A DNA stretch of 35,547 nt from a virus. Location: positions 1 through 35,547 of IMG/VR virus record IMGVR_UViG_3300030331_005786; one strand, 5' to 3'. This document shows positions 1-23,500 of this stretch, piece by piece; the stretch's first letter is position 1; the number at the start of each line of letters is the position of its first letter. The position numbers were made by a program, and so were the translations under genes. Under the pieces are notes generated by a model. That model made no database searches. It saw only the letters and a program-made list of their open reading frames with translations, and was not told the DNA's origin.

Positions 1-164
1 ATTTTCATATCCACAGGTACTTTATTATCTCTTTGAAATTTCCAACCTTCTCCTTCTAATATTTCAATTAATCTATCCTCTTTATCCTGATGCCATACTA
101 AATCAAGTTCATCAACATTAGATGAAAATTCTCTTATATTATTTTGATCTGAGTAGGGTTTCAT
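1..164 (-). CDS. Conserved phage protein, truncated at window edge
   Basis: An open frame of about 54 codons runs from an ATG at 162-164 off the left edge of the window, so only the N-terminus is present. The peptide begins MKPYSDQNNIREFSSNVDEL and continues with DLVWHQDKEDR and EILEGEGWKFQRDN. From memory this looks like a small conserved protein of marine T4-like phages whose core is an acidic segment followed by WHxDxEDR. Its function is unknown to me. The start codon overlaps the TGA stop of the upstream gene (ATGA), which indicates translational coupling. The reading is clear, but no function can be assigned. Confidence 0.75.
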   Translation of the reverse strand, partial: MKPYSDQNNIREFSSNVDELDLVWHQDKEDRLIEILEGEGWKFQRDNKVPVDMK

Positions 165-457
165 TTTTCTAAATAAGGATGAAATAATATATCTACTACT
201 TTAGCGTCTTTTTTAATTGATTCTCCATCTATTTCAACTTCAGCTGGGTATACTTGTACATCTTCCCCATACCAATATTTTATTCTATAACCACCAGTTT
301 CTAGTAGTTCTACTAATAAACCTCTTTTATAATCTTTTTCTTCAGCCTGTAGAATGACTTCTTTACCTCTAGGTAAAATTAAAGCAGCCCCAGGGACTTT
401 AGAATCATCTTCTTTTTTTTGTTCTATTATATATTTTTTTAAATCAAATTTATCCAT
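161..457 (-). CDS. Hypothetical protein with capsid-targeting-like N-terminus
   Basis: Encodes about 98 residues starting MDKFDLKKYIIEQKK from the ATG at 455-457. An upstream in-frame TTG at 461-463 is possible but lies inside the preceding gene. The ATG shares one base with that gene's stop (TAATG), which favours the ATG. The N-terminus is a short amphipathic segment containing IIE, like the first residues of several other proteins in this block. The rest (VPGAALILPRGKEVILQAEE, then GGYRIKYWYGEDVQVYPAEVE) looks like a small all-beta domain and ends FHPYLEK. I do not recognise a family. It may be a packaged virion protein, by analogy with its neighbours. Confidence 0.75.
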   Translation of the reverse strand: MDKFDLKKYIIEQKKEDDSKVPGAALILPRGKEVILQAEEKDYKRGLLVELLETGGYRIKYWYGEDVQVYPAEVEIDGESIKKDAKVVDILFHPYLEK

Positions 458-2061
458 TACCAAAATGTATTCATATTAGCTCCTAAACCTAATTGTTTAG
501 CATATTTAGGTAAGTTACAAGACCAATATCCTGCAGTTGTTCTATCTTTTTTATTTTTACAATTATGTCTATCAGCAAAAGCATTTCTTGCTTTTTTATC
601 TTTAATTTTTACTTTAAGGCTTTGACCTCCACCTGCTGCTCCAAAACTTACTTTTTTAACTTTTTTGGTTTTTGGATCTCTAACATAAACATAAAATTTC
701 TTAGAACCCCCCCTTTTAGGTTTATTTAAAGATACTTCTTTACCTCTAAATTCTGCTTCTTTTACAGCAACAAATTGTTTACCTTTTTTACTACCTCTTA
801 CTTTTTTAGCTACAGTAGCTTTACGCTCTGCTTTAGTCATTGCTTGTGCTTTTTTTCTAGGTAAACATCTTGTAGTAGCTTTACCTTTTTTCATTGTACC
901 ACACTTACCAGTTATATTACCTGATGTGTTAATTCTTACCCAATCTTCTTTACCAAACCAATCTTTTAATGACTCAGCTATTTTATCTATATCTAAGGTT
1001 TTATATCCTGATCCATAAGGTGCAGCTTTACCATCATGATTAGGAGCTACATTTTCATTTTTATATGATTTTTTTCTTTTACCACCTGCTCCCTTAATTT
1101 GTCCTTTACAAACTTTTACTGCTCTGCCTGATAAGTAAGCTGAGGATTTTTCACCTGCTCTTTTTCTTGCTGCAATATAATTTCTACCTCTTTTACAAAG
1201 CTTAGATTTTTTCTTTTTTTCATTTATTTCATCTTCAAAAAGAGGAGTATTAGCTTTTATTACTTGGTTAACTGCAGCTTTAATTTGCTTTTTACCCCAA
1301 TTTTTAGCCTTTTTATATTGTTTTTTAATATAACCAATAACTTCTTCAAGTTGTTCTTCAGTTAATGCCTCAAATGGTAATTCTTCTTCTTCCATATAAC
1401 CATTTGCTACTAACCAATCTCTAACAAAAGCTTCATCATCTTTCATTAATTGTATTTGTAACATTCTAAATGTTCTAGGACCAAAATCTAATTCAATTTG
1501 ATCTCTATTTTTATTTAAAAAATCACCTGTGTCAATATTTTCATTTATTCTATTCATATCTCTATCTGACACCCAATAAGCTGTACTTCCACCAGGTGTT
1601 GCTCCTCCTGATGATGCCATTTTTACATATTTTTCAGCTTCTTCCTTTGAAAATATTCTTGGTTCTTCGTAATCTGATTCTTTACTTTTAACTAAACCTT
1701 TACCTTGTCCTCTACCTTTATTGTAAGTAACATAATATTCTTGTTCTTCATTTAACATAGGAATATCTAGTGGTACTCTTTTACCTTCAAACATACCAAA
1801 ACTACCAACATGAGTTTCAGTTAAAAAATATTTATCTGCTTCACTTACATCTAATCTACCACGAGAATATAATGATCTGGCTTCAGTATATAATTTCATA
1901 TATTCTTTAGAACCAATACGATAAATATTTTCACTTAACGGTATTTGATTGTCTATATGATACTTTAACCCTTCTGATATAGGAGTATGTATAAATTTAC
2001 TTTCTTTGAGTATTAACGTTTTACTCTTATCATCACATGTATTACATCCACATCCACACAT
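457..2061 (-). CDS. Multi-domain basic virion protein (DUF5872-like region)
   Basis: A 534-residue mosaic. Residues 2-9 form a Cys cluster (CGCGCNTC). Residues 29-105 form a segment I associate with marine T4-like phages (GLKYHIDNQIPLSENIYRIG). Residues 280-335 form a Cys-pair basic domain (LCKRGRNYIAARKR, then RAVKVCKGQ) that recurs at 751-800 of the 1071-residue protein. Residues 362-432 resemble DUF5872 (DWVRINTSGNITGKCGT, RCLPRKKAQAMTKAERKA). Residues 452-525 form a C-terminal Cys-pair domain (ADRHNCKNKKDRTTAGYWSC). Long stretches are Lys/Arg-rich, so DNA contact is plausible. Sites such as INE281 and IAE363 lie close to domain boundaries. The likely role is an internal head or other virion protein; no enzyme activity is visible. 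Confidence 0.85.
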   Translation of the reverse strand: MCGCGCNTCDDKSKTLILKESKFIHTPISEGLKYHIDNQIPLSENIYRIGSKEYMKLYTEARSLYSRGRLDVSEADKYFLTETHVGSFGMFEGKRVPLDIPMLNEEQEYYVTYNKGRGQGKGLVKSKESDYEEPRIFSKEEAEKYVKMASSGGATPGGSTAYWVSDRDMNRINENIDTGDFLNKNRDQIELDFGPRTFRMLQIQLMKDDEAFVRDWLVANGYMEEEELPFEALTEEQLEEVIGYIKKQYKKAKNWGKKQIKAAVNQVIKANTPLFEDEINEKKKKSKLCKRGRNYIAARKRAGEKSSAYLSGRAVKVCKGQIKGAGGKRKKSYKNENVAPNHDGKAAPYGSGYKTLDIDKIAESLKDWFGKEDWVRINTSGNITGKCGTMKKGKATTRCLPRKKAQAMTKAERKATVAKKVRGSKKGKQFVAVKEAEFRGKEVSLNKPKRGGSKKFYVYVRDPKTKKVKKVSFGAAGGGQSLKVKIKDKKARNAFADRHNCKNKKDRTTAGYWSCNLPKYAKQLGLGANMNTFW

Positions 2062-2063
2062 AG

Positions 2064-3170
2064 TTACTTAATTATCATATTAGGGTGAGGATTATTCCAT
2101 TGGTACCCACTAATTGGATTTTTTACTATTGTTCCAAATAAACCTGCATCAATAGAATCCTCTAAATTATCAACATCTACTAATACATAGTCACCTGTTT
2201 TAGAATTCATAAATAGGAATGCTCCTACATTTGTTTTCTGAGCATATGCTTCAGCATTTAGTTTTGTTAATTTAATTTTCATTTCAGCTAAATCTTGAAA
2301 ATCAGCAGGACCATTAAAATATTTTTTAGCTAATCCTTTATTAAAAAATACTCCATCTAAAGCTTTTTGAACATCTTTAATTACATCCTGTGATTTTGCT
2401 CCATTTTTTATTGCTTGATTATAAATATTCTTAAGAGAAATATTTATTACCTTATTTTGAGGATCATTTAAAAATTCTTCTAGTTCTTCTCCTTCTAAAT
2501 ATTTTTCTCCTAAAAATGATAAATAATCAAAATCACTTCCTCTACCTGCTTGTTGACCTAATCTACCACCAGTTCCTTTTACTTCTAAATTTTTACCATC
2601 ATAATTTAAATCACCCCCTCCACCTCTATTGTCAATATCATTAAAAGCTAAAGATAAAAATAATTCACCTTTACCAATAGAAGAACCTCCAGCATCTGCT
2701 CCTGGTTCAATATCAATTAAATCCTTTACTAATTTACTTGATAATCCTGTAACTTTTGAGAAATTACCCCTATCTGGAGTATTTCTAAATGATTTAGGAG
2801 TGTAGTTAATAAATTCTTCTGCTTCTGAATCTGCTATTTTATCAATTATATAATCAATTGCTTTATCTCCAACTTTAAAAGAATCTTGTGTATATCCTTT
2901 ATTATTAAGTTTACCTGTTATATCTCCTTTAAATCCTCTATTAGTAATAGATTTAGTGTAAGCTCTTAATTCATCATCAGATAAATCACTTGAATTAATT
3001 ATATCAATTAATTTTTTCTTTAAATCTTCATCCTCATCTTCTTTAATAAGATTTTTTACCATTTCAAATAAAATTTCTTTATCCTTAGGATCATTAATAT
3101 CAGGATATCCTTTAGAAAATTTATATGCTATATTATTTAAATATTTAGTAATTGAATCCATTTTAATCAT
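2064..3170 (-). CDS. PD-(D/E)xK nuclease-like protein
   Basis: Up to 368 residues. The central region carries the pattern of a restriction-endonuclease fold: Glu169 in GKGELFLSLAF, Asp187 in GGGGDLNYDG and the E-x-K pair Glu196/Lys198 in NLEVKGTGGRLGQ. The N-terminal 150 residues are helical and acidic (KEDEDEDLKKK). The C-terminal part continues the fold (AYAQKTNVGAFLFMNSKTGD). The longer ATG start at 3168-3170 overlaps the upstream stop. A second in-frame ATG at 3159-3161 gives MDSITKYLNNIAYKF, which aligns better with the shared N-terminal peptides of this block and may be the true start. It probably cuts DNA. Whether it acts on host or competitor DNA, or is packaged in virions, cannot be read from sequence. 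Confidence 0.8.
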   Translation of the reverse strand: MIKMDSITKYLNNIAYKFSKGYPDINDPKDKEILFEMVKNLIKEDEDEDLKKKLIDIINSSDLSDDELRAYTKSITNRGFKGDITGKLNNKGYTQDSFKVGDKAIDYIIDKIADSEAEEFINYTPKSFRNTPDRGNFSKVTGLSSKLVKDLIDIEPGADAGGSSIGKGELFLSLAFNDIDNRGGGGDLNYDGKNLEVKGTGGRLGQQAGRGSDFDYLSFLGEKYLEGEELEEFLNDPQNKVINISLKNIYNQAIKNGAKSQDVIKDVQKALDGVFFNKGLAKKYFNGPADFQDLAEMKIKLTKLNAEAYAQKTNVGAFLFMNSKTGDYVLVDVDNLEDSIDAGLFGTIVKNPISGYQWNNPHPNMIIK

Positions 3171-3723
3171 CTTTATAAAGATCTGGGTCTATAGGTTCTG
3201 GGTTCAATGCAGCTTCAGAATTTCTTTCTTGCCATTCATATGATATACTATCTTTATTAATTGGACCTCCTGCTGCCCAGGTATTACAAGCTCTTGCTGA
3301 ATGGCATTTAAAATGGTGCATCCAACAATATCCTAAAACACCTTCTTTAACTAAATTAGCTATTTTACTATTACCTTTAAAAGCTATATCAATGTCTTTT
3401 CTAGCATCAGGTTCTTCTACGGGTTCAGAAGTTAATCCTGGTATGCAATCTAACATTCTAGGTGAAATATCAAATGCTACACAATTAGCACACCTAGATT
3501 TAAATGCTGCTTCAAATGTTGTATTCCATTTTTCAGCAACTTTTTCCCAATAATCTCCTGGTTCTTCAACATTTAAAGGGCCATAATTAATATAATCTGA
3601 TCTTATTGCTCTATCTCTATTAGCTGTGTTTAGGGCTACATTTTGAGTAGGAGCAGGGCAAGGCATTAATGCTTCAAATAGTTTTCCTTCTTTTAAATAT
3701 TTTTTTAAATTAAAGTTTATCAT
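3163..3723 (-). CDS. Cys-rich protein, possible metal or Fe-S binding
   Basis: 186 residues. It begins MINFNLKKYLKEGKLFEALM, a clear case of the amphipathic leader found in this block, with LKE12 and LFE17 as candidate protease sites before a Pro/Cys segment. Cysteines lie at 22, 78, 81, 93, 133, 140 and 146. The order CANC (78-81), Cys93, then GYC (131-133) recalls high-potential iron-sulfur proteins. However, the gap between Cys93 and Cys133 is much longer than usual, and two further Cys follow in FKCHSARACNTWAAGGP. I recall the last motif as conserved in marine T4-like phages. Metal binding is a reasonable inference; the cofactor is undetermined. Confidence 0.8.
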   Translation of the reverse strand: MINFNLKKYLKEGKLFEALMPCPAPTQNVALNTANRDRAIRSDYINYGPLNVEEPGDYWEKVAEKWNTTFEAAFKSRCANCVAFDISPRMLDCIPGLTSEPVEEPDARKDIDIAFKGNSKIANLVKEGVLGYCWMHHFKCHSARACNTWAAGGPINKDSISYEWQERNSEAALNPEPIDPDLYKDD

Positions 3724-5875: not shown

Positions 5876-5890
5876 ATTTAATTATAAATT
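5876..5890 (-). promoter_or_regulatory. Variant of putative late promoter element
   Basis: The coding strand reads ATAATTTATAATTAAA just upstream of the Hc1-like start. It shares the TTTATAAT core with the exact elements at 6674, 7685, 12319, 17484 and 30492 but differs on both flanks. It overlaps the stop codon of the preceding gene. This is the weaker of the two variants. Confidence 0.4.
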
Positions 5891-6662
5891 ATACTTTTAC
5901 TACGTGTTTTCTTGTAAAATAAGTGATTGTATTACCAATTTGAGCTAATAATTTTTCATCACCTAATTTTTCAGCTTGTTGTTGGGCTTTAGTTAAAAGA
6001 CCTTGAACGGCTTCTACTTCTGTTGACTCACCAGGAACTGATGTTCTAACACGGATATCTGATTCTGTTTCTTTATCATCAATATCAACATCTTTTTCAA
6101 TATCAATATCAACGTTTTCATCATCAGTAACTTCTACATCTTCTTGCTCAGCTACACCATCACCAGCATAAGTATCTACTTTAGTTCTTATTCTTTTTGG
6201 TTTACCTGCTACTCTACCTCTAAATGTACTTTCATCCATGTCTTTCATTTCTTCGTCCATGTCTTTTTTCATTTCTTCGTCCATGTCCTTTTTCATTTCT
6301 TCATCCACATTAACATAGTAATCAGAAGTACTTTGTCCTACTTTTCTAGGATCTTTTAATGTAACTGACTTGCTTCTAGTAGGGTTATTTTTTTCATTCC
6401 AAGCAACAGCATCCATTTCATCTAAATCTTTTTTATCTTTCATTTCTTCTAAAACTTTTTCTTTAATTTTAGATTTTAATTCAGATAATTTCATTTTAGA
6501 TGATTTTTTCTTCATATCACCTTTCATTTCTTCGTCCATGTCCTTTTTCATTTCTTCGTCCATGTCTTTTTTATACTCTTCTTTAACTTCCTCATCTTTT
6601 TTAGCTTCAGCTAAAAGTGGGTTGTTTTTTAAGTAATTTCTGTAGTTAAATTCGTTTGCCAT
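5889..6662 (-). CDS. Highly charged repeat protein, candidate internal head protein
   Basis: 257 residues, starting MANEFNYRNYLKNNPLLAEA, another capsid-targeting-like leader. It is dominated by charged low-complexity sequence. An 8-residue unit DMDEEMKK is repeated in two clusters, near residues 28-48 and 120-143. The region between them is Lys/Glu helical (SELKSKIKEKVLEEMKDKK), and an Asp/Val tract (DVDIDDKE) follows the second cluster. The last 60 residues look folded (VEAVQGLLTKAQQQAEKLG, then ITYFTRKHVVKV). An exact copy of the putative late promoter lies 11 bases ahead of the ATG. Charge, repeats and leader are typical of internal or scaffold-type head proteins. No known domain is recognised. 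Confidence 0.8.
   Translation of the reverse strand: MANEFNYRNYLKNNPLLAEAKKDEEVKEEYKKDMDEEMKKDMDEEMKGDMKKKSSKMKLSELKSKIKEKVLEEMKDKKDLDEMDAVAWNEKNNPTRSKSVTLKDPRKVGQSTSDYYVNVDEEMKKDMDEEMKKDMDEEMKDMDESTFRGRVAGKPKRIRTKVDTYAGDGVAEQEDVEVTDDENVDIDIEKDVDIDDKETESDIRVRTSVPGESTEVEAVQGLLTKAQQQAEKLGDEKLLAQIGNTITYFTRKHVVKV
6231..6308 (-). repeat. 24-base coding tandem repeat, cluster A
   Basis: About three imperfect copies of a 24-base unit encode DMDEEMKK inside the 257-residue protein. Copies differ by single substitutions or a lost codon pair (the cluster ends MKDMDES). The unit is in frame, so copy-number change would lengthen or shorten the protein without a frameshift. Confidence 0.8.
6522..6572 (-). 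repeat. 24-base coding tandem repeat, cluster B
   Basis: Two further copies of the same DMDEEMKK-encoding 24-base unit lie near the N-terminus of the same protein, about 220 bases from cluster A. The bases are nearly identical to cluster A, which suggests recent internal duplication. Confidence 0.75.
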
Positions 6663-6708: not shown

Positions 6709-7668
6709 TTATTTTTTTAAGTAGTTGAATATTTTTTCTTTTAGTTCCATTAAATTTGGACCTGCTGGTTTGTTTCTTGGTTTTCCATCTGGTGTATAAC
6801 CACAAGTACCTTCATTCATATCATAATTTTTAATTTGTTTATTAACTTGAGATAAACGAGCTTCTAGTTTATTTAATTCATCCCCATATTGGTCAGCAAC
6901 AGGACCACCTTCTGCTTCTATATCGGGATCATTTTCCATTTCTCTATATAAATTAGATATTCTTCTTTCTAAATCTCCTTTTTCGTCTCTTAAATCTAAA
7001 ATTTGATCAAAACTTAGTTTAGGAACTGATTTCATTTTTTCTTTTCTTGTTTTAGCTGCTCTTGTTTTTACTAAAACAGGATCATTTAAATCTGCTTCCA
7101 TTACTCTATCTCCTAATACACCTCTATTTCTAAGAGTTTCTAGGTCTTTTATATAAGCATTAGTGTCAACAATATATTTACCTAAATCTTCTTCTTTTTC
7201 AGTGTCCTTATTTTTAGTAATACTTAACAGTGTAAATTTAGGATTTCTAAAATCATCATAATTACTATTATAATGTTGGGTTTGGTAAATAAAATACTCA
7301 TCTTCTAAACCTTTTGTTTCATGATATTGCATATGAACAAAAGTAGTATTCATACCAGATTGTTCAGTCCAGTCAGCATGTTTTTTTAATCTATCTTTTA
7401 ATGCTTTATCATTCCTAGAAGCCATACCATTGGGAAACATATCTTCTACTTCTTTTTGTTGAAACATATCACCTGGTTTTTCTTTTTTAGGATATGTTCC
7501 TTCTTGACCATAATCAGTAAATTCTTTTAAATAGGGTTGTTCACCATCTTTATTATATGAAGTAAAAGTAGAACTACGCATAGCATCAGTTTCTTTTTGA
7601 GCATTACTTTTAAATTCTTTAATATACTGTTCTTTAAAGTATTTTGTTAACGAAAAGTTATCAGCCAT
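6709..7668 (-). CDS. Hypothetical virion-type protein with coiled coil
   Basis: 319 residues. The leader MADNFSLTKYFKEQYIKEF matches the capsid-targeting-like pattern, with IKE18 as a candidate cut site. Residues 90-180 appear to be a folded domain (TTFVHMQYHETKGLEDEYFI, then FTLLSITKNKDTEKEE). Residues 215-280 are a predicted coiled coil (DLERRISNLYREMEN, then LNKLEARLSQVNKQI). The C-terminus has a short motif, MNEGTCGYTPDGKPRNKP. An exact promoter element lies 16 bases upstream. I do not recognise the family. The leader and promoter link it to the rest of the accessory block. Confidence 0.8.
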   Translation of the reverse strand: MADNFSLTKYFKEQYIKEFKSNAQKETDAMRSSTFTSYNKDGEQPYLKEFTDYGQEGTYPKKEKPGDMFQQKEVEDMFPNGMASRNDKALKDRLKKHADWTEQSGMNTTFVHMQYHETKGLEDEYFIYQTQHYNSNYDDFRNPKFTLLSITKNKDTEKEEDLGKYIVDTNAYIKDLETLRNRGVLGDRVMEADLNDPVLVKTRAAKTRKEKMKSVPKLSFDQILDLRDEKGDLERRISNLYREMENDPDIEAEGGPVADQYGDELNKLEARLSQVNKQIKNYDMNEGTCGYTPDGKPRNKPAGPNLMELKEKIFNYLKK

Positions 7669-7726: not shown

Positions 7727-8302
7727 TTATTTTTTTAAATTCTCTAGATATTCTATAGTTTTTTCTAAACTTTCTAATACTCTTTTTTTATTATATCCTC
7801 CAACCCATTTTTCAACATCACCTTGTTCTGTTACATAGGATTCATTAGATGTTGTTAATTGATCTTTAACAAAATCTTTAAAATCCTGAATAAAAGCATC
7901 TAAATCTGTATTATGGATGTTTTTTTCATATATTTCCCATGCTCCTACTTTTTTTAAATCAGATACAAAATATAAAAAACATTCATAACATTTTTTATGT
8001 ATTTTATAATAACTAGGATCAAATTTATGTTTCATTTGTTTATTACAATTAGGACAAAATAAGGGGGTTTTAATTAATTTTTTTATTTCATCATACTTTG
8101 TAATATTTTGTTTAATTCCATTTTTGATAGTCCATTTACGACCATTTTCTTCCCAAATATCTCCCTCTTTATAAAATGTATCTTTTTTAGTATAACCTAT
8201 TCCTTCAACAGTTCTATCACCTGTTTTTCCTTGTACTAAATTTCTAACACGTTGTACATCTTTTTTGGAAAATTCTTTTCTTAAAACATTATCTTGACTC
8301 AT
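7727..8302 (-). CDS. Zinc-ribbon protein
   Basis: 191 residues. Residues 83-108 hold a four-cysteine zinc ribbon, CPNC (83-86) and CYEC (105-108), separated by a basic, aromatic loop (KHKFDPSYYKIHKK). The N-terminal 75 residues include a beta-like stretch (FYKEGDIWEENGRKWTIKNG) and the C-terminal 60 are helical (VLESLEKTIEYLENLKK). The start ATG overlaps the stop of the 1071-residue gene's upstream frame in ATGA fashion (8299-8302), so the two are translationally coupled. Zinc binding is a safe inference. Nucleic-acid binding is possible but not shown; I recall similar zinc-ribbon proteins in marine T4-like phages. Confidence 0.8.
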   Translation of the reverse strand: MSQDNVLRKEFSKKDVQRVRNLVQGKTGDRTVEGIGYTKKDTFYKEGDIWEENGRKWTIKNGIKQNITKYDEIKKLIKTPLFCPNCNKQMKHKFDPSYYKIHKKCYECFLYFVSDLKKVGAWEIYEKNIHNTDLDAFIQDFKDFVKDQLTTSNESYVTEQGDVEKWVGGYNKKRVLESLEKTIEYLENLKK

Positions 8303-11300
8303 AAACCTAATTCTTTTAATTTACTTATTGTTGAAGCAGTATCCGTATGTAATATACCAATTCCACCAGCTTTTATCCATTGATCTATATTTGATTCTCT
8401 ATCATCAATTAATATACTATCTGGATCTGCATAATTTTGTTTATTTATAGCTTGTGCTAATATTAGTTTAGTTGATGGTAAATTCCTTTTTCTCCAAGTT
8501 CTTTTACCTATCCTTGAATAATTAGCTCTTGAAGGAGAAGATAATAATAAAGGATCATATTTTTTTATATAATTCCATAATTGTTTTCCATCTTCCATCC
8601 AATCCATACCTACCCAAAATCTTACTCCAATACCATCTACTAATTCCCAAAATTTTTCTTTTCCAAATTTTCTTTCATATTCTGTTGGAGATATACCATC
8701 TGCAAATCTTCTAAATCTTTTATCAAAATCAACTAATACCCCATCCATGTCAGAGTAAATTTTATAAGTTTTTTGTTCAGTTATATTTTTTTTGGATTTT
8801 CTAATTAAACTCCATTTGGGTAATTTTTTACCCTTATATTCTCCATCCATCTCAAAATTTCTAACTGAGTATTTTTTGCCATCTTTATCTTCTAAAGATA
8901 GTTTATATCTATTTACTCCTTCTCTACTATTTTTTATTACTTTTAATTGTAATGATTTTTCTAATTTTTTCCCACTTAAAGGAAATCCTTTAGGAGCTCT
9001 TAATACATCACCTGGTAGTATTTGACCATCATAATTAGATAAATCTATACCTATTTCTTTTATTATATCAGGTTTTCTTCCTTGTGCTGATCTTTTCTTA
9101 CCCTTTTTAGGTCGAAAATCTTTTTTTTGTTTTCCGTCTGTACCACTCATTTGTCCCTTACATACTTTTACGGCTCTTGCTGTTAAAAATGGATTATGTT
9201 TTTCACCCTCTCTTTTTCTTTTAGCTATATAATTATAACCTCTTTTACATAATTTTTCATTTATTAATTGATCTATATATTCAGTAATATCTCTATAACT
9301 TGTACCTGAGGGAAATGATCCCATTTTTTTTAATGCTGCTGCTTTAGTTTTAAAAGGTCCAAATTCTTGTCTTATACCTGGTGAAAATGGATTATCTTGC
9401 ATAAAATAAAATTTACCATCTTTTTTATATACAGCTCTATATCTATACCCAGATCCTTTACCATAACCTCCTTTTTTTTCATTTATCTTCTTTTTTTTTA
9501 AACGTTGTGTTTTTCTTTTAGAAGCTTCTTTACGTTGTTTAATATAATTAAATGCAGATTGTAGTTTCTTTTTCTTTTTAGGATCTTTAGTTCTTCCTAA
9601 TGCTGCTCTTATTCTTTGATGAATTAAATTGATTACTTGAGATTGACGAGCATGAGATTTATTTTTAAATGAAGATTTATTTAATGTATTTACTACATCT
9701 TGTCTTGTAGAAAATTTTACTTTTACTGTATCAGAAGGATCTTCATCAGTGTATAATCTTCTTCCTGATCCTTTAGGTTTTTTACCTGTTCCTTTTTTAG
9801 GGTCTGCTTCAGATATAATACCAAATGTAATGCAAGGATTTTGCCCACACCCACAATTTATTTTTTCTTCAATTTTATCTTTTACATTTATAACTCCTAC
9901 CATATCGCTTCCTAAATGAGGATCACAATGATAATCATATACCCCAGGTTTATTAAATTTAACAGTAAAAACCCATCCTTTACCTACTTCATTTTTAAAA
10001 CTTCCTGGGTTGTTTTTATTTCTAGGATGGGATTTATCTCCATTTACATTATGATATCCTTCTTCATTAATAAATTTTACAATATCTCCCTTATTTATAG
10101 TAAGATCTTTAGGTATAAATTCTAAACCTTTAGCTATTACTTCATGTACTGTATTGTTTTTATCTTCATTGACATTAGTTGTTGTTTTTAATGTTTTTGA
10201 TAATTGTAATGCTTTATAATATTTTTGATTTTTATCTCCTAATTGAACTCCCTTTTTATCCTTATCTTTATCCATTTTCTTTAATCTAGATAGTTCTTTA
10301 TTGATTAATGATAATGGAATTTTTTTACCTTTAGGTATTTTTAATCTTTTTCTAACTGTTCCTTGTTTTAAACTGCCTGCTTTTTTTCCTTTAGCAGCCA
10401 TTTTTTCATATGTATCTCCTTCTTTTAATTCTTCTTCTAAACCCATTGCTAATTCTCTAGCATAAGCATTTATACCAAAAGGATCTGGTTTTTGTTTTTT
10501 AATTTTTATTGGAATTAAAGATCCTCCTTCTTCAATATCATTATCTAAAGAATCTGTCCAATTTCTAAATGTCATTGTTCCTACTAAATTAGCTTCTTGT
10601 TCAATTTTATCTAAATTTTTATCTTTTGTAGTATCTGTTGTTTGTATATTACCTAATCTACCTTCTAAAAATTGAGTATGATGAACCATTTCATGGGCAT
10701 ATGACCTAACTATGTCTTTGGGATGTCTACCTTCTGTATATAAAACTATAGTTTGAGTGTTTGGGTCATAATAAGCAGTTTTACCAAGGAAATTTTTAGC
10801 ATTTTCTGAATCACCATCTACAATTTTTAAGGTAGGTAATGGTTCTATATTTCTACCTTTTTTTAACATATAATTAGTTAAATCACTAATCATTTGTATA
10901 TAATCTATATTTTGAGTATATGTAGCATTTTCTTTTAATGTAGGAGAAACTATATCGAATACTTTACCTTTATCTTCTTTTGATAATTTTTTAGGTAAAA
11001 ATGGAGTAAAATATAATTTTCCTTTTTTAGCTGCTTCTCTAGCATTTCTGCCCCTCATACCTTCATCCTGAGTAGTAATAATTTTTAAATCTAAATTATC
11101 ATATTTTTTAGGATTAGTTTTTAATGTTTTTGCCCTATCAACTATATCTTTATCATCATCATCAGCACCTTCTCTTCTACCAATTACCCAATAAACAATA
11201 TCTTGAGGGTTATTTTTAGCAAAACTATAAATATCACCAATAGGCATTTTTGATGGTTGAATCCTAACTTTAGGTGGTAAATAATCTTGATAAATTTCCC

Positions 11301-11514
11301 ATATTAAAAGAGCTTCAGCTTGCGAAATACCATTCCTTTCACCCCCTCCTACTAGTATAATTAATTCATCAATTTCGGGATATTGCTTTAAAGCTTCTTC
11401 AACTACTTCAAAATGTCCTCCTATTGGAGGTTTAAAACCACCGCCATAAAGAGCAACTATCTTTTTATCTTCTTCTAATAATCCTTCTAATAAAGATCTT
11501 GTTAAATGATTCAT
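8299..11514 (-). CDS. Multi-enzyme polyprotein-like fusion (NTase, zincin, cupredoxin, HAD)
   Basis: 1071 residues. In order: leader MNHLTRSLLEGLLEED; cytidylyltransferase-like domain about 18-175 (GGFKPPIGGH at 25-34, MRGRNAREA at 153-161); HExxH zincin-like domain about 196-330 (His274, Glu275, His278; Glu307 as possible third ligand); linker 366-450; cupredoxin 455-544 with type 1 copper ligands His488, Cys530, His533, Met538; CGCGQNPC at 554-561; basic helical domain 585-676; small domain 688-732; LCKRG Cys-pair domain 754-800; basic domain 821-905; HAD 5'(3')-nucleotidase 914-1071 (DMDGVLVDF at 922-930, IDDRE at 1036-1040). Candidate (I/L)-x-E sites lie at most junctions: 195, 365, 569, 679, 753, 820 and 913. 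There is no frameshift or stop. Individual domain calls are strong. The biological reason for the fusion is inferred. Confidence 0.9.
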   Translation of the reverse strand: MNHLTRSLLEGLLEEDKKIVALYGGGFKPPIGGHFEVVEEALKQYPEIDELIILVGGGERNGISQAEALLIWEIYQDYLPPKVRIQPSKMPIGDIYSFAKNNPQDIVYWVIGRREGADDDDKDIVDRAKTLKTNPKKYDNLDLKIITTQDEGMRGRNAREAAKKGKLYFTPFLPKKLSKEDKGKVFDIVSPTLKENATYTQNIDYIQMISDLTNYMLKKGRNIEPLPTLKIVDGDSENAKNFLGKTAYYDPNTQTIVLYTEGRHPKDIVRSYAHEMVHHTQFLEGRLGNIQTTDTTKDKNLDKIEQEANLVGTMTFRNWTDSLDNDIEEGGSLIPIKIKKQKPDPFGINAYARELAMGLEEELKEGDTYEKMAAKGKKAGSLKQGTVRKRLKIPKGKKIPLSLINKELSRLKKMDKDKDKKGVQLGDKNQKYYKALQLSKTLKTTTNVNEDKNNTVHEVIAKGLEFIPKDLTINKGDIVKFINEEGYHNVNGDKSHPRNKNNPGSFKNEVGKGWVFTVKFNKPGVYDYHCDPHLGSDMVGVINVKDKIEEKINCGCGQNPCITFGIISEADPKKGTGKKPKGSGRRLYTDEDPSDTVKVKFSTRQDVVNTLNKSSFKNKSHARQSQVINLIHQRIRAALGRTKDPKKKKKLQSAFNYIKQRKEASKRKTQRLKKKKINEKKGGYGKGSGYRYRAVYKKDGKFYFMQDNPFSPGIRQEFGPFKTKAAALKKMGSFPSGTSYRDITEYIDQLINEKLCKRGYNYIAKRKREGEKHNPFLTARAVKVCKGQMSGTDGKQKKDFRPKKGKKRSAQGRKPDIIKEIGIDLSNYDGQILPGDVLRAPKGFPLSGKKLEKSLQLKVIKNSREGVNRYKLSLEDKDGKKYSVRNFEMDGEYKGKKLPKWSLIRKSKKNITEQKTYKIYSDMDGVLVDFDKRFRRFADGISPTEYERKFGKEKFWELVDGIGVRFWVGMDWMEDGKQLWNYIKKYDPLLLSSPSRANYSRIGKRTWRKRNLPSTKLILAQAINKQNYADPDSILIDDRESNIDQWIKAGGIGILHTDTASTISKLKELGL

Positions 11515-12314
11515 TTATTTAAAAATTGTTTTATTTTTGATTGAGCTTCTTCAGCTGATACTGAATTATCTATTATATTTTTTACTCCATTATCAGCTAG
11601 TAAATTTTTTATTTGTGCATTTATTTTAGCTTTTCTTTCATCTGATCTAGCTTGGGCTTTAGCATCTTTTGGTTTTGTGCCTTGGGGTTTAAAAGGATCT
11701 AAATATTTTTTTATTATTGACTCTAAGTCTTCTAATTTTTCATCTTTTAATAAATTTGAAACAGACACAAAATTATCACCAAATGCATTTTTATATTCAT
11801 TATAATTTTGGGTAACATCATTCCATGTGCGCATTACAATAGCGGGCGCTAAACTTCTATCTTTACCCCCAGATTTATCAAATCTATCCTGATTTTGTTT
11901 TAATGAGCGTTCTAAATCTGTATAAACATATAACATAAATACTTCGTATCCTGCTTTTTCTAGTTCATCTTTTAATTTAAGAGTAGCTTTACTTGATGCT
12001 GCAGTTCCGTCTAATATAAATGACTCTCTGTTAGATATTGCTCTTGGTAAATCTTCATCTTTTAGTTTTGATGTTGCTTGTCTCATTAATTTAGCAGCTT
12101 TACTTCTTTCTTCAGGTGTAGCATTTTTTAAATCTAAACTAACTCCTGATTTTTTTAATAAAGGGACAAAATCTAAATCTAAATTGTAAGTAGTTAAACC
12201 TGATAGGTCTAATCCTCTTAAAATAAATCCTTTACCTGCTCCAGGTGCTCCTGCTAATATAATTGCTTTGGGATTACCAATAGCTTCACTTAATATTCTA
12301 ACTAAACTTATCAT
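11511..12314 (-). CDS. P-loop kinase, zeta-toxin/AAA-like
   Basis: 267 residues. A Walker A motif GAPGAGKG lies at 22-29, directly after a short leader (MISLVRILSE). Then come NLDLDFVPLL, a helical lid, an FILDGTAASSK segment acting as Walker B-like strand, and VFMLYVYTDLERSLKQNQDR, typical of the arginine-containing lid of small-molecule kinases. The overall layout resembles zeta-toxin and related phage kinases that phosphorylate a nucleotide, sugar or RNA end; the substrate is unknown. The C-terminal 60 residues are Lys-rich and helical. The stop overlaps the next start (TGA/ATG at 11511-11514). A promoter element lies only 4 bases before the ATG. Confidence 0.8.
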   Translation of the reverse strand: MISLVRILSEAIGNPKAIILAGAPGAGKGFILRGLDLSGLTTYNLDLDFVPLLKKSGVSLDLKNATPEERSKAAKLMRQATSKLKDEDLPRAISNRESFILDGTAASSKATLKLKDELEKAGYEVFMLYVYTDLERSLKQNQDRFDKSGGKDRSLAPAIVMRTWNDVTQNYNEYKNAFGDNFVSVSNLLKDEKLEDLESIIKKYLDPFKPQGTKPKDAKAQARSDERKAKINAQIKNLLADNGVKNIIDNSVSAEEAQSKIKQFLNK

Positions 12315-17539: not shown

Positions 17540-20500
17540 TTATACTTCCTCATTTTTATCTGGATTATCAAACACATTTTCCGATTGTAATTTATTAATT
17601 ATTTTCTGAACATTTGCTTGTTGGGTTGAAGTTAAATCATTTGGTATTAAATATCCATCACCTGATGGGGTTGTAATACCTCGTGATCCTGAAGGGGGAG
17701 ATAAGTCAAGTACTACTCTAGAATCATCTTCAGTTCTTCTTCTAATAGTTGCTGCTAATATACTTCCTGATGGTATTGGTTTAACTAGAGCTACAGGATC
17801 TGGATCTACTAATAATCTATTCCATACAAACCCAGCATCAAACGCTAATGCTTGTGTTTGATCTTCACCATCTGTAATGAATAATTTTCTTTGAAAGTTA
17901 AATCCACTACCTCCATACTTTCTTGGCATTACTAATGATCCAGTACCACCCGCTGTTATCCCAGCGTAATCATCTACTCCACTCATATTTGTACCAAATA
18001 TCCAATTAGCTGATGTTGTAGTTTGAGGAGTTCTAAAATTACTTCTTTGAACTGTAACTGTTACCGTAGTTGGTCTACTTTCACCATCTAAATTAGTTAC
18101 AAAATTAGTTTGTTGTACATTTGCAATAAATGAGCCACTACCACATCCATCAAGAGTTGCATTACCAGCACCTGCATTCATTAAGTAAAAGCAAGATTTA
18201 TTCTGCATAGCTATATCTAGTCTTCTTGTATATTCATCAATTTGGGTAGCATATCCATTAAATTCTGGGGCTGATGAAGTTATTAAACCTGGTATATCAA
18301 AATTAAAAGTACTACCTCCTCCAGGAATACCAAATGCTTCAGTCATTAATGCAGGAGGAGCTATTTCATATTCAATTACTCTAAAATCTTGAGTTATAGT
18401 TTCAAAATTTTCATTAATATCATTAATATCTTGAGTAGCTGCATTTTGTGAAGGAAATCTGTATGATACTCTTATTTCATCACCTACTTTAATTTCAAAT
18501 GATTTATCGTTTTGTTCATATTCTGATAATAATGATTGTGAAAAATTAAATCTATAATAATTATCTAAATTTTCTTTATCTTGTATAACAGGTAATGTTG
18601 TATCACCTACACTTGGGGACGAATTAGCTGTTTTTAATCCATTAGTTTGAGGAACAAAAGCTATTGAACCAAAATTTGAACCAGTTCCTAGTGATGTTAT
18701 AGTACTGGCAAATCCTACAGTTGTTTGTAATGCTGGATAAGTAACACCAGGCACACCATTTTCAGTTGCAAAATTAGCATTAACTGAAGCATCACCTCTT
18801 CTAGTATTAATATTTAAAGTATTAAATAGAGCGTATAAAGGACCTATTAATGAAAAATTTGATGTAAATGAACCATTACTTAATATTGCTCTAGGTGTAA
18901 CGCTACTTTGATTAGGACCTAGCAAGGTTAATATTCCTAATCCTTTACTTCTAGCGTAATCAGAACTTCCTGTTGTAAAAATATTTATTGCTGATGCTGA
19001 TGTCATTTGTTTTAATTCTAAATCACTTTGAAGTGGAACATTAGGTATTTGATCATCATTCATAACACCACCACCTTTAGATGAACCAATTTGGAATTGT
19101 TGGAATTGATTTGACCTCAAAGCCCAAGTAGGTCTAAACCATGAATGAGAAATAGTGGTATTAATATTAGTAAATTGATTTGAAAAATATGCCTGAAAAT
19201 CATTAGCTGGTGCAAATATGTTATGTGACCCATTAGCTAAAGTAGCATAGTTAAGAGTTAAATTAAATGCTCTAAATGTTTTAGTTTGTGAATTAAAAAA
19301 TACACTTGCTCTTCTATTTTTTTCAAAAGTAGATGATACAGGTATTAAATTTTCATTACTACCATTTAATAAAGAAGATGTAATTATTGGTGATTGTTCA
19401 TTTAATATATCATTAAATGGTATTTGAATTAATTGATCTAATATAAATGTAGTAGTGTTAAATACAGATGGTGATGAAAACGATTGTTTAAAATGTGCTA
19501 TATTAATAGGATTTTTATCTATAACAGCAGTTTTACCATATGAAACATCACCTCCCCAACTTCCAGTTTCACCATTTACATATCTAACTTTATGAATAGC
19601 TAATAACTCGGGTAAATTTGCTAAACTTGTAAATCCTTGGGTTGGTGATAAACCAGTTGCAACACTTGCTGATGGTATACCTGTGTAAAAATTATAATCT
19701 GCACTTTCTAATAAAGATCCATTATATCTTGGATTAATTACTGAGAGTGCTGTGTAATTACTATCTGGAACTTCAGCAAATTCTAATAATGGGGTGGTTG
19801 TACCTCTATTAGCTGGCTCCCATCCTAATTGAGATGCTGATACTAATAAAGGATAGTCTGAAGGTATTCCTTGAATTTTGGTTGATCCTGAGGTTACAGG
19901 ATCAAAATCCATATCAAACAAATATGAATTTTTTCTACTACTACTTACATTATTAATTAAAGGATTATAAAATGAATTTTGAAATAATTGACTTTGTGAA
20001 GGTATAATAGTAAAACCATCATTAGGTTGTAAATGTTTTCCACCTAAACCACCTACTATTGAAATAGAATGTAATTCAAAAGTAGCAGATTGAGGTTGAG
20101 AAGAGGCTAAAAAGAAAGCTGAAAAACCTCCATTATCAAACCCAGATCCTGGGCCTGATGTAAAAGGTTGTATTACACCAGGAGCAGATCCAAAATTTGT
20201 AGCAGTAAATGTAATTTCAAATTGTCTTAATGAAGCAACACGTTCTGAACCTGATAGAGCTGTAGCACTAGCTATAAATCCAGTAGAATCTGCTCCTTGC
20301 AATGCTGGACCAACTTGTGGAAGATTTGTTAAAGCTGTAACAGAACCACTAACAGTATATGCAATACCTGGGACTAAATTTTCAAATGCTCCAACTATAA
20401 AATAAGTTCCAGTTGACACTGCAGCATCAGTAGTAATTGTTATACCTGCTGTAGATACACTAGAAAGGGTTAGCCCTGTAGAAGTAAGACCTGTACTTAC

Positions 20501-23500
20501 TTTACTAGTTACTGCATTATTTAAATCAAAACTAGGTGTTGGGAGTGTATCAGGTGTTTGATCATTTCCATCAGCAAATATTCTATAAGGGTTATATTGA
20601 GCAGGAAGAGGATCTATACTACTACCACTATACTCACCATTATAAAATTCATCTTGTGTGTTTTTTATTTTATTTTCTCCTGTAAAATTATCTACGTAAA
20701 ACCATGCTTGTTGAGAAGATGATAATGGTGGTGTTGGATTTGAAAATCCTGGGTTTCCAATAATACCCCCACCTGAAGTTGGTCCAGTATTTGTTAAATT
20801 ATAAGCATTAAAAGATGATGTAATGAATTGTACACTATCAGTACCACTTGTATCTCTTACCCATACTTGATATCTTTCTTCAGGCATTAATGTTAATACT
20901 GGTGAAGTAAAATCAACATCACTACTTACTGTACCATCAAATTCCTTTTCAAAAAGAATTCCTCTTTTTGATCCAGATATAGTTAAAATATGAGTATCAC
21001 TATCAATACTTGATGCCTTAAATCTATATTGAACATCTAATGGTCTTAATACTGTAAAAAACTGGGATGCAGTTAATGCTGAAGATGCTTCATTTGGTAT
21101 TTGTGGTCCTTGAAAGAAATCTCCATTTGTTTGAAAATAACCTTCATCTGCTCCAAAATCATCATAAAAATTAGTAATATTTCTTCCTTCAGTAGTAAAA
21201 GTTAAACTTCTACCCATATTTATCTTACTACCTGTTGTTCCTCTTAAAATATTATATTTATTAACACTTCCACCAGCACTACCTGTTAATGACTGCATTC
21301 CTATACTTGAAGTAATTAATAAATTTTTCTTAACTATTCTATTATTATATCCTTTAACATTACTTCCTTCATCTTCATTTATAGGTGTAGTAGCAATTAC
21401 AGTATTGATGTTAATACCAATCTCTGTATTTGTTTTATTTCGTTCTAATAGATGTTGTTTTACGATAATTCCCGTACTTAAACTTGTACGAGCAGGTACA
21501 TAATTTTTTATTGCTTTAAATAATGATGATTCATAAAACTTAATTAATCTATTATAATCATATTCTTTTTCAATTATTTTTGGATCCTGATATTTAGTAA
21601 ATAAAGGTGTAATAACTGGATAGCCCTGATATTTTTTAAAATAATCTTCAGCTATACGAGTTAATTCAGGATATCTATCTCCACTTTCAGAAATATTTCT
21701 TGGATCTGCTATTGCATCAGAAACAACTCCATGACCAAAAGTACTTATAATATCATCATTTATTTCATTTTGAAATGAAAATCCAACTTCTAATGAGTTA
21801 ATGTCTTCAGTATAACTTGAACTTTGTTCAAATTCTTGTTGTATACTTCTAAAAGGTGATAACGTTGTTCCAAATTCATTACCATCAATTACTTGAATTT
21901 TATTTTTTATTCTATTTCTAATACCTGCAGAGGGTTGATCCATATAATTTAAACTATTATTTGGAACAACATAAGATGATGTAACTGTTAATTCTGGAGT
22001 GTCATTAAATCTAAAGTTTAAAAAATAAGGATTAAAAAATGGTGAAGTAGTAGTTGGGGATGGTTTATTAAAAAATGAACTTGTATATAACCCAGGATTA
22101 CCTACACCTATTCCATAAGATCCTGTATAGTTTACAACTGCAGGATGTACTGATCCAACAGTAGAACTTCCACTTACAAGATTACTATCAAGTGGTCCTG
22201 TTGGTTGTAATCCACCAAATGAAAATTGTCTAAGATTAGTAACATAAGTAGCATCAAAATAAGATGCAGATCCATTTGGTTCTGTAAATTCTAATTCATT
22301 ACCTAAAGGTACTCTATAGCTTAGTAAATCATAAGAACTTCCTGGTCCCGTATTTGAATCAGAATGACCTTGAATAGACTCAGGATTCATTACTAAATCA
22401 TTAAATGATGAAGCAGATAATGCTCTTCTATAATATCTAAATTCTTGAAAAGAACCAGACATAGTATCTCCTAAATCAAAACCAGGAATTGTTTTTGAAT
22501 TTGCTTTTCCTACAGTATTGTTAGCAGTATAAACTGCATTAGGAAATATATTTCCAGGAAGGAATACTTGAGAACCATGATAATTATGAATTTGCTTAGT
22601 ACTCCCAGGATTAGGATCTAAGAAAAATCTATTCCAAGCTTCATTCATTGAAGCTGAAGCTACTCCTGCTGACATTGTTAAACTAGAGGAAGCTAACCAT
22701 CCTACTTCATTACCATCATAACCATTATATATATTTTGACCAACTCTTAATTCAAATTCATTAATTGTATTATTTTGACCTGATGCTGATATATGTGTTT
22801 TTCTTTGTATTTGTACTGTCCACCATTCTTTATTATAAAAAGGTAAGTAAATAGGATCTGTAATATATACATTTGCAAAATTAGTACCACCTATATTTCT
22901 AGCTTCTTGTGCACCCTGAGTAAGTGATCCTGATATAACAAAGGACATACTTGCATAAGTATTAAAATGAGGAGTACTTGCACCATCAAATGAACCTGAT
23001 TGCGATCCTGATTGGTGAAGAAATATTCCAAAATCTCCATTATTATCTTCATCATCAAAAGTAGGATCTGCTCCTCTTTTTAATAAAAGTGACTCTGAAA
23101 AATTTGTTATTGCTGTTGCTTCTCTTGCAGTTTTAAATCTAAATTGTATGCAGTCTGGGAGTTCTACTCCAGTAGATCCTGCTGAAGGGGCAGAAGCATT
23201 TGCTGCAAGGGGCAACCAGGGAAACATTGCATTAGCATTTACAGTAGGATATCTTCCAGTATTAGGTATACTGGCTGTTGCAGGTGTTGCAAAAGTATTA
23301 AATGCTGTAGAATAACGATTCATCCATAAATCGTAATCATTTTCATCATCTTTATTTTTACCTCCAAATTCACTTATGCGAAGCATTGTATTTGGAACCC
23401 CCCATATATTAATTAATTGTCTTAATCCTGTTACAGTTCCTTTTCTTTTTACTAAAGAAACCATATTATGAAAGATTCTTTTATATATTTCTTGAGCAGC

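Follow-up and report, generated by a model that had tools for sequence, protein, structure and literature searches.

The stretch analysed here (the window) is a fragment of 35.5 kb from the IMG/VR virus record IMGVR_UViG_3300030331_005786, with a GC content of about 28%, in which T4-like baseplate, primase and exonuclease genes were found. Its subject is an open reading frame (ORF) of 1071 amino acids, a candidate head-cargo polyprotein, and the short tripeptide that recurs at its module boundaries. The single unbroken frame described in a first-pass annotation of this DNA is real, though it lies on the minus strand and is read from 11514 to 8299; the plus strand across the same interval holds many stops. 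The four or more unrelated folds claimed for the chain were recognized as a nucleotidyltransferase-like (NT), an HExxH metalloprotease-like (MP), a cupredoxin (CU) and a HAD module, which gives the ORF the several unrelated domains per chain that mark the polyvalent proteins of phages and mobile elements. The features are collected in Table 1.

NT matches NadD/PPAT in Foldseek (E 2.6e-5), with weak matches only in phmmer against solved structures (E 0.44); its PP and GH are conserved, the window copy lacks the first His of HxGH, and diverged NT copies keep [ILV]xE at the module end. In MP, the H, E and H of HExxH and a downstream E are invariant across 21 copies; the match to MPTase-PolyVal (E 0.32) lies below the family cut-off, with HExxH conserved. 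CU is matched by PF00127 (3e-13) and by plastocyanins in the PDB (1e-12), and its copper ligands His, Cys, His and Met are readable in the sequence, giving an apparently complete type-1 site. Its identity comes from these searches, the fold not being modelled confidently with too few relatives in the alignment. HAD matches PHROG 2643 (1e-23), with no match in phmmer against solved structures. The modules bas1, bas2, m3, CKRG and m5 have isoelectric points (pI) of 9.9-10.9 and belong to no known family. The nine main predicted products measure 7-21 kDa, with a pI above 9 in six, and would thus have the small, basic character of mature T4-type internal head proteins. Two observations concern CU: a plastocyanin-like copper module lies within probable phage head cargo, with no second copy in the first 78 loci of the scan described below, and a Cys-rich motif, CGCGxNxC, is common to the start of ORF 457-2061 (MCGCGCNTC) and the CU tail (INCGCGQNPC), each time followed by a predicted cut site.

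Table 1. Features of the 1071-residue ORF and its surroundings (window coordinates; predicted assignments)
Feature	Residues	Position	Strand	Description	Basis
Putative cargo polyprotein ORF	1-1071	8299-11514	-	1071 aa	single open frame; homologues found
Leader	1-10	11485-11514	-	MNHLTRSLLE, capsid-targeting-like; ends LLE10	similar leaders in homologues; T4 capsid-targeting sequence (CTS) has 10 residues (PMC9026906)
NT	11-195	10930-11484	-	NMN/pantetheine-phosphate adenylyltransferase fold; ends SPTLKE195	Foldseek
MP	196-365	10420-10929	-	zincin-like HExxH metalloprotease; ends LKE365	weak DUF6782; conserved HExxH
bas1	366-450	10165-10419	-	basic (pI 10.2); ends VNE450	
CU	451-569	9808-10164	-	plastocyanin-like type-1 copper domain and Cys-rich tail; ends ISE569	PF00127, PDB
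bas2	570-679	9478-9807	-	basic (pI 10.9); ends INE679	
m3	680-745	9280-9477	-	small, basic, predicted beta-strand-rich; ends ITE745	
Spacer	746-753	9256-9279	-	YIDQLINE, like leader of stand-alone CKRG genes	
CKRG	754-820	9055-9255	-	basic (pI 10.5); ends IKE820; also in ORF 457-2061	
m5	821-913	8776-9054	-	basic, predicted beta-strand-rich; ends ITE913	
HAD	914-1071	8302-8775	-	5'-3' deoxyribonucleotidase-like; own gene and leader in many relatives	PHROG 2643
Zeta-toxin-like P-loop kinase		11511-12314	-	leader MISLVRILSE (ends ILSE10)	PF06414 5e-18
ORF		6709-7668	-	CTS-like leader MADNFSLTKYFKE	
ORF		5889-6662	-	CTS-like leader MANEFNYRNYLKNNPLLAE	
ORF		3163-3723	-	CTS-like leader MINFNLKKYLKE	
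Second polyprotein-like ORF		457-2061	-	534 aa; holds CKRG module	
ORF		161-463	-	CTS-like leader MVMDKFDLKKYIIE	

The nine tripeptides previously listed at or near module boundaries (LLE10, LKE195, LKE365, VNE450, ISE569, INE679, INE753, IKE820 and ITE913) all stand at the residues named, and the roughly ten further (I/L)-x-E that had been cautioned about number exactly ten, at 14, 15, 50, 73, 329, 361, 484, 550, 745 and 1068. That list was incomplete, since it overlooked ITE745, which is among the best supported junctions, and its motif, correct in I and L, was too narrow at P3, where V is also accepted (VNE450, and VTE59 in the capsid protein of a sister contig). The chain holds 18 [IL]xE, whereas shuffling it gives 9.4±2.7 (p=0.003). 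An AlphaFold model built from 29 sequences (mean predicted local distance difference test score, pLDDT, 63) shows confident cores for NT, MP, bas2 and HAD with low-confidence segments between them; 12 of the 18 [IL]xE, compared with 15 of the 45 other Glu, fall where pLDDT is below 50 (Fisher p=0.024). The expectation that sites lie in linkers more than in folds is thus borne out in the model, which is weaker evidence than the cassette tests below. The clear in-fold sites 50, 73, 484 and 1068 were never seen as exchange points between the window protein and L002, the closest comparison.

A scan of IMG/VR yielded 78 loci. With the chain divided at the proposed sites and every piece searched separately, the pieces recur in relatives in changed order and number, deleted, or as separate genes, and the exchange points fall exactly on [I/L/V]xE. 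The order is NT-MP-bas1-bas2-m3-HAD in L002, NT-bas2-m3-CKRG-m5-MP-HAD in L008, NT-bas2-CKRG-m5-bas1-MP with HAD as its own gene in L016, and NT, unrelated sequence and bas2-m3-m5-bas1-MP in L029. L002, the closest relative (best segment 91% identical), lacks two blocks of the window protein, removed exactly at VNE450/ISE569 and at ITE745/ITE913. Without residues 451-569, window ...TTTNVNE/DKNN...FGIISE/ADPKKG... becomes ...TTTNVNE/ADPKKG..., and without residues 746-913, ...YRDITE/YIDQ...KNITE/QKTYK... becomes ...YRDITE/QKTYK.... The sites are conserved in homologues as cassette boundaries while the flanking sequence is replaced. In several loci (L048, L051, L057, L060 and others), cassettes unrelated to each other are joined by a linker of some 25-30 residues (ENIDPKAQAKHKGKAAPFGSAYEPVNE / NENVAPNHDGKAAPYGSGYK) that recurs and often ends in a site.

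Breakpoints were defined among cargo genes as the ends of BLAST matches (high-scoring segment pairs, HSPs) of at least 60% identity where both partners continue. [IL]xE was present at 107 of the 564 distinct breakpoint ends, where random placement gives 27±5, and at 191 of the 815 distinct starts, where it gives 44±6; the peaks are centred exactly on the E. At the ends, the control tripeptides [IL]xD (21 against 31) and [IL]xQ (4 against 15) showed no excess, and [IL]xK showed a weak one at most (50 against 46 at ends, 91 against 67 at starts). The absence of [IL]xD at junctions is in line with the inhibition of T4 IPIII leader processing when Asp replaces Glu (PMC9026906). Clean cassette indels had a site at both flanks in 20 of 88 cases, where the null mean was 0.3 and the maximum 3 in 2000 trials. 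Among junctions with support from each side, about 80% have L, V or I at P3; N, K and T predominate at P2, and G, K, A and N, along with S, at P1'. This logo agrees with T4 gp21, which cleaves after L/I-x-E (PMC9026906). The junction codons vary (TTA, CTT, ATA, ATT, GTA and GTT at P3 and numerous ones at P2), which places the selection on the protein rather than on a DNA signal and disfavours a DNA-level recombination signal.

A held-out test used three single-module scans, which found bas2 in at least 569 stretches, CKRG in 23 and bas1 in 128; previously used sequence was removed and each distinct upstream neighbour inspected. [ILVMF]xE stands directly before the module in 64 of 74 distinct upstream contexts, with 2-3% expected by chance. 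By module the figures are 27/28 for bas1, 32/41 for bas2 and 5/5 for CKRG, and by place 56/65 internally and 8/9 near the N terminus.

HAD, CKRG and bas2 also occur as stand-alone genes, in which the module follows directly on a leader of some 12-20 residues that ends in this motif (MIYNMSKISLTELIEDIITE/KLCQRG, MNTLLENRLEGLIRE/KLCKKG, MIKLVDLLKEITE/GDPKVG). The spacer YIDQLINE before KLCKRG at residues 746-753 looks like what is left of a leader of this type, an indication that fused cassettes derive from separate cargo genes. A leader M-x-NFDLRKYLxE is common to diverse gene bodies, with 37 copies in the cargo region against 2 upstream. Both this family and MNHLTRSLLE10 appear to have the form of a capsid-targeting leader, 10-20 residues ending in L/I-x-E. 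The earlier focus on a single ORF was thus correct for that ORF and too narrow in scope, as the neighbouring gene block shows the pattern too.

A gp21-type protease, which the polyprotein proposal demands, was found among relatives. Peptidase_S77 (PF03420) is encoded in a sister contig, G001, at L090:9943-10548 (E 2.5e-31); its polyprotein is 91% identical to that of the window; the window fragment itself stops short of this region. Gene order in G001 is cargo block, terminase, portal, three smaller genes, S77, scaffold and gp23, with terminase, portal and scaffold identified by position and by sequence resemblance to Flavobacterium phage immuto. Its gp23 carries VTE59, near the expected propeptide end, T4 gp23 losing a propeptide of 65 residues (PMC5694885, PMC9958956). 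Among 13 further large cassette-bearing contigs, gp23 is present in 9, and S77 in all 9 of those. S77 and a gp23-type capsid protein hence occur together in the same phage in relatives, and the modules are divided by predicted sites of the virus's own kind of protease, recognized by family and only in these relatives. Two irregularities were noted in these contigs: the gp23 match at 150626-152065 of G021 holds one in-frame TAA, which may reflect misassembly, recoding or a broken gene, and the cassette-bearing G024 (268739 b) has two S77 genes and two gp23 loci and may be a chimera or doubly joined genome.

Taken together, the 1071-residue ORF very likely encodes a head-internal cargo polyprotein of a T4-like phage, cut by the prohead protease between modules into about nine proteins. 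The polyprotein interpretation of the first-pass annotation is supported at the sequence level, by S77 in the sister contig and by sites conserved as cassette boundaries. For cleavage, for packaging and injection, and for what the individual modules do, we infer the following course. The N-terminal leader would bring the chain into the prohead core, where an active gp21-type S77 protease would cut after [I/L/V]-x-E at E10, E195, E365, E450, E569, E679, E745, E753, E820 and E913, and these ten cuts would release the leader, the short spacer and the nine proteins. The products, mostly basic, would stay with the packaged DNA, the basic modules associating with it, and their size would permit exit through the portal at infection. 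Folded T4 IPI is small enough for the portal of about 30 A (PMC9026906), and cutting the chain would make sense on these grounds. The enzymes (nucleotidyltransferase-like, metalloprotease-like, copper protein, deoxyribonucleotidase and the adjoining zeta-like kinase) may then act on the newly infected host. With the same short site at every module end, processing could continue whichever cassettes are added, dropped or moved.

Other explanations account for parts of the pattern. An uncut multidomain ('polyvalent') protein, in which [ILV]xE marks recombination-tolerant flexible linkers or short shared DNA promoting recombination, is unlikely. Multidomain phage proteins transferred whole are known, the N4 virion RNA polymerase being an example (PMC5512222), and the junctions lie mostly in low-confidence, probably flexible regions of the model. 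Tolerance nevertheless leaves the fixed Glu at P1 and I/L/V at P3 unexplained, with no excess of Asp or Gln, the differing junction codons reduce shared DNA to a few bases, and leaders of stand-alone genes end in the same tripeptide. Cutting in cis or trans by the chain's own MP module instead of the prohead protease, as proposed for phage P1 DdrB, would fit the presence of MP, with its HExxH intact, in most homologues and the autoprocessing that Iyer et al. propose for such domains (PMC5512222). We regard it as more doubtful still, since the motif is the known specificity of T4 gp21 (PMC9026906), leaders of genes that have no MP end in this site too, gp23 carries VTE where its propeptide is expected to end, and S77 is present in every further tested cassette-bearing contig with gp23.

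Processing only after injection, with the polyprotein travelling whole to the host cell, has been proposed in general terms for plasmid polyvalent proteins (PMC5512222). Here it is highly improbable, because the site matches a protease active in the prohead and a 120-kDa multidomain chain would need passage through a narrow portal. Chance placement of a common tripeptide might seem to gain from the ten extra [IL]xE in the chain, some within folds, and is hardly credible given the breakpoint test; the held-out result (64/74 against 2-3%) rejects it.

Several points weigh against a head-cargo polyprotein. Peptidase_S77 is absent from the window, a fragment that ends before the head operon and contains no head genes. 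With gaps placed strictly, which overlooks sites one residue off, most of the 88 indels do not have a site on each flank. No exact site is present in 10 of the 74 held-out contexts, of which four have one 1-3 residues off and several others carry extra Lys or Arg between site and module. Related contigs are non-independent samples, and duplicates were collapsed by context only. The polyproteins of L020, L021 and L030 start directly at NT without a leader, and the cargo-block ORFs 7727-8302 and 2064-3170 of the window have no leader site. [IL]xE at residues 8-20 does not discriminate cargo genes from upstream genes (0.45 against 0.40) and was dropped as a cargo-gene marker; only the fuller FDLRKYLxE leader discriminates. 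Given this count and the leaderless L020 and L030, the leader may be dispensable at times. No IPI-IPIII or Alt family was found among the Pfam or PHROG matches. That the favourable evidence consists of sequence comparison and models also counts on this side.

Among known systems, the arrangement appears closest to T4 IPI, IPII, IPIII and Alt (PMC9026906, PMC5694885, PMC9958956), which share a short N-terminal targeting leader and an L/I-x-E site of the S77 prohead protease. IPI-IPIII are basic proteins of 8-20 kDa, and internal proteins are poorly conserved even between T4-like phages (PMC9026906); the predicted products would likewise be small, basic, variable between relatives and late-acting head cargo. 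In T4, however, each internal protein has one gene and one leader, Alt being also trimmed at the C terminus, whereas here many modules are fused with internal sites. In phiKZ and SPN3US, several inner-head proteins are cleaved after x-x-Glu by the gp21 homologues gp175/gp245, with multiple sites in the propeptides (PMC5694885, PMC9026906), and offer a probable parallel, but those cuts remove propeptides, the motif is A/S-x-E, and release of several functional modules from one chain is not described there. The polyvalent proteins of phages and conjugative elements (Iyer et al. 2017, PMC5512222) similarly combine 2-15 disparate domains in mosaic architectures with a zincin-like domain and are thought to enter the host with the DNA, and the analogy to viral polyproteins has already been drawn for them. 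In the sections cited, release by embedded peptidases is proposed and no inter-domain site motif described, whereas the boundaries here bear the prohead-protease motif. Among cultured phages, gp88-gp76 of immuto (NC_055915) keep the same gene order, exonuclease, NT+MP protein, deoxyribonucleotidase (dNT), cargo genes, terminase, portal, S77 and gp23, and gp76 has the same leader, MENFDLKKFLVE; immuto differs in that dNT is a separate gene and fewer modules are fused. In the open-access literature, no paper was found on prohead-protease sites as cassette boundaries, nor under 'phage polyprotein' or polyprotein with capsid maturation protease. The host is probably a member of the marine Bacteroidota, judging solely by the closest isolate, a Flavobacterium phage.

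More broadly, it is likely that a widespread group of marine T4-like phages assembles its injected proteins as polyproteins from exchangeable cassettes, with the prohead-protease tripeptide as a universal connector that lets cassettes fused in many orders be released as separate proteins in the head. Proteins packaged in the head are some of the earliest phage products that the host encounters, and T4 IPI shows that anti-restriction factors can be of this kind; their lack of conservation makes them difficult to recognize. Should cassette ends prove to be prohead-protease sites, the cargo carried by uncultured T4-like phages becomes readable from sequence alone, module by module; bas2 by itself occurs in the 569 or more virus stretches above, and the isolates searched hold almost none. 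The system would be a clear example of a protease site serving as domain-shuffling connector in a bacterial virus, with each cut a testable prediction.

Around the polyprotein gene, the neighbouring zeta-toxin-like kinase is probably further head cargo, an injected enzyme. Outside the cargo block, a tail-region protein of 2565 aa at 17540-25237 on the minus strand is probably structural.

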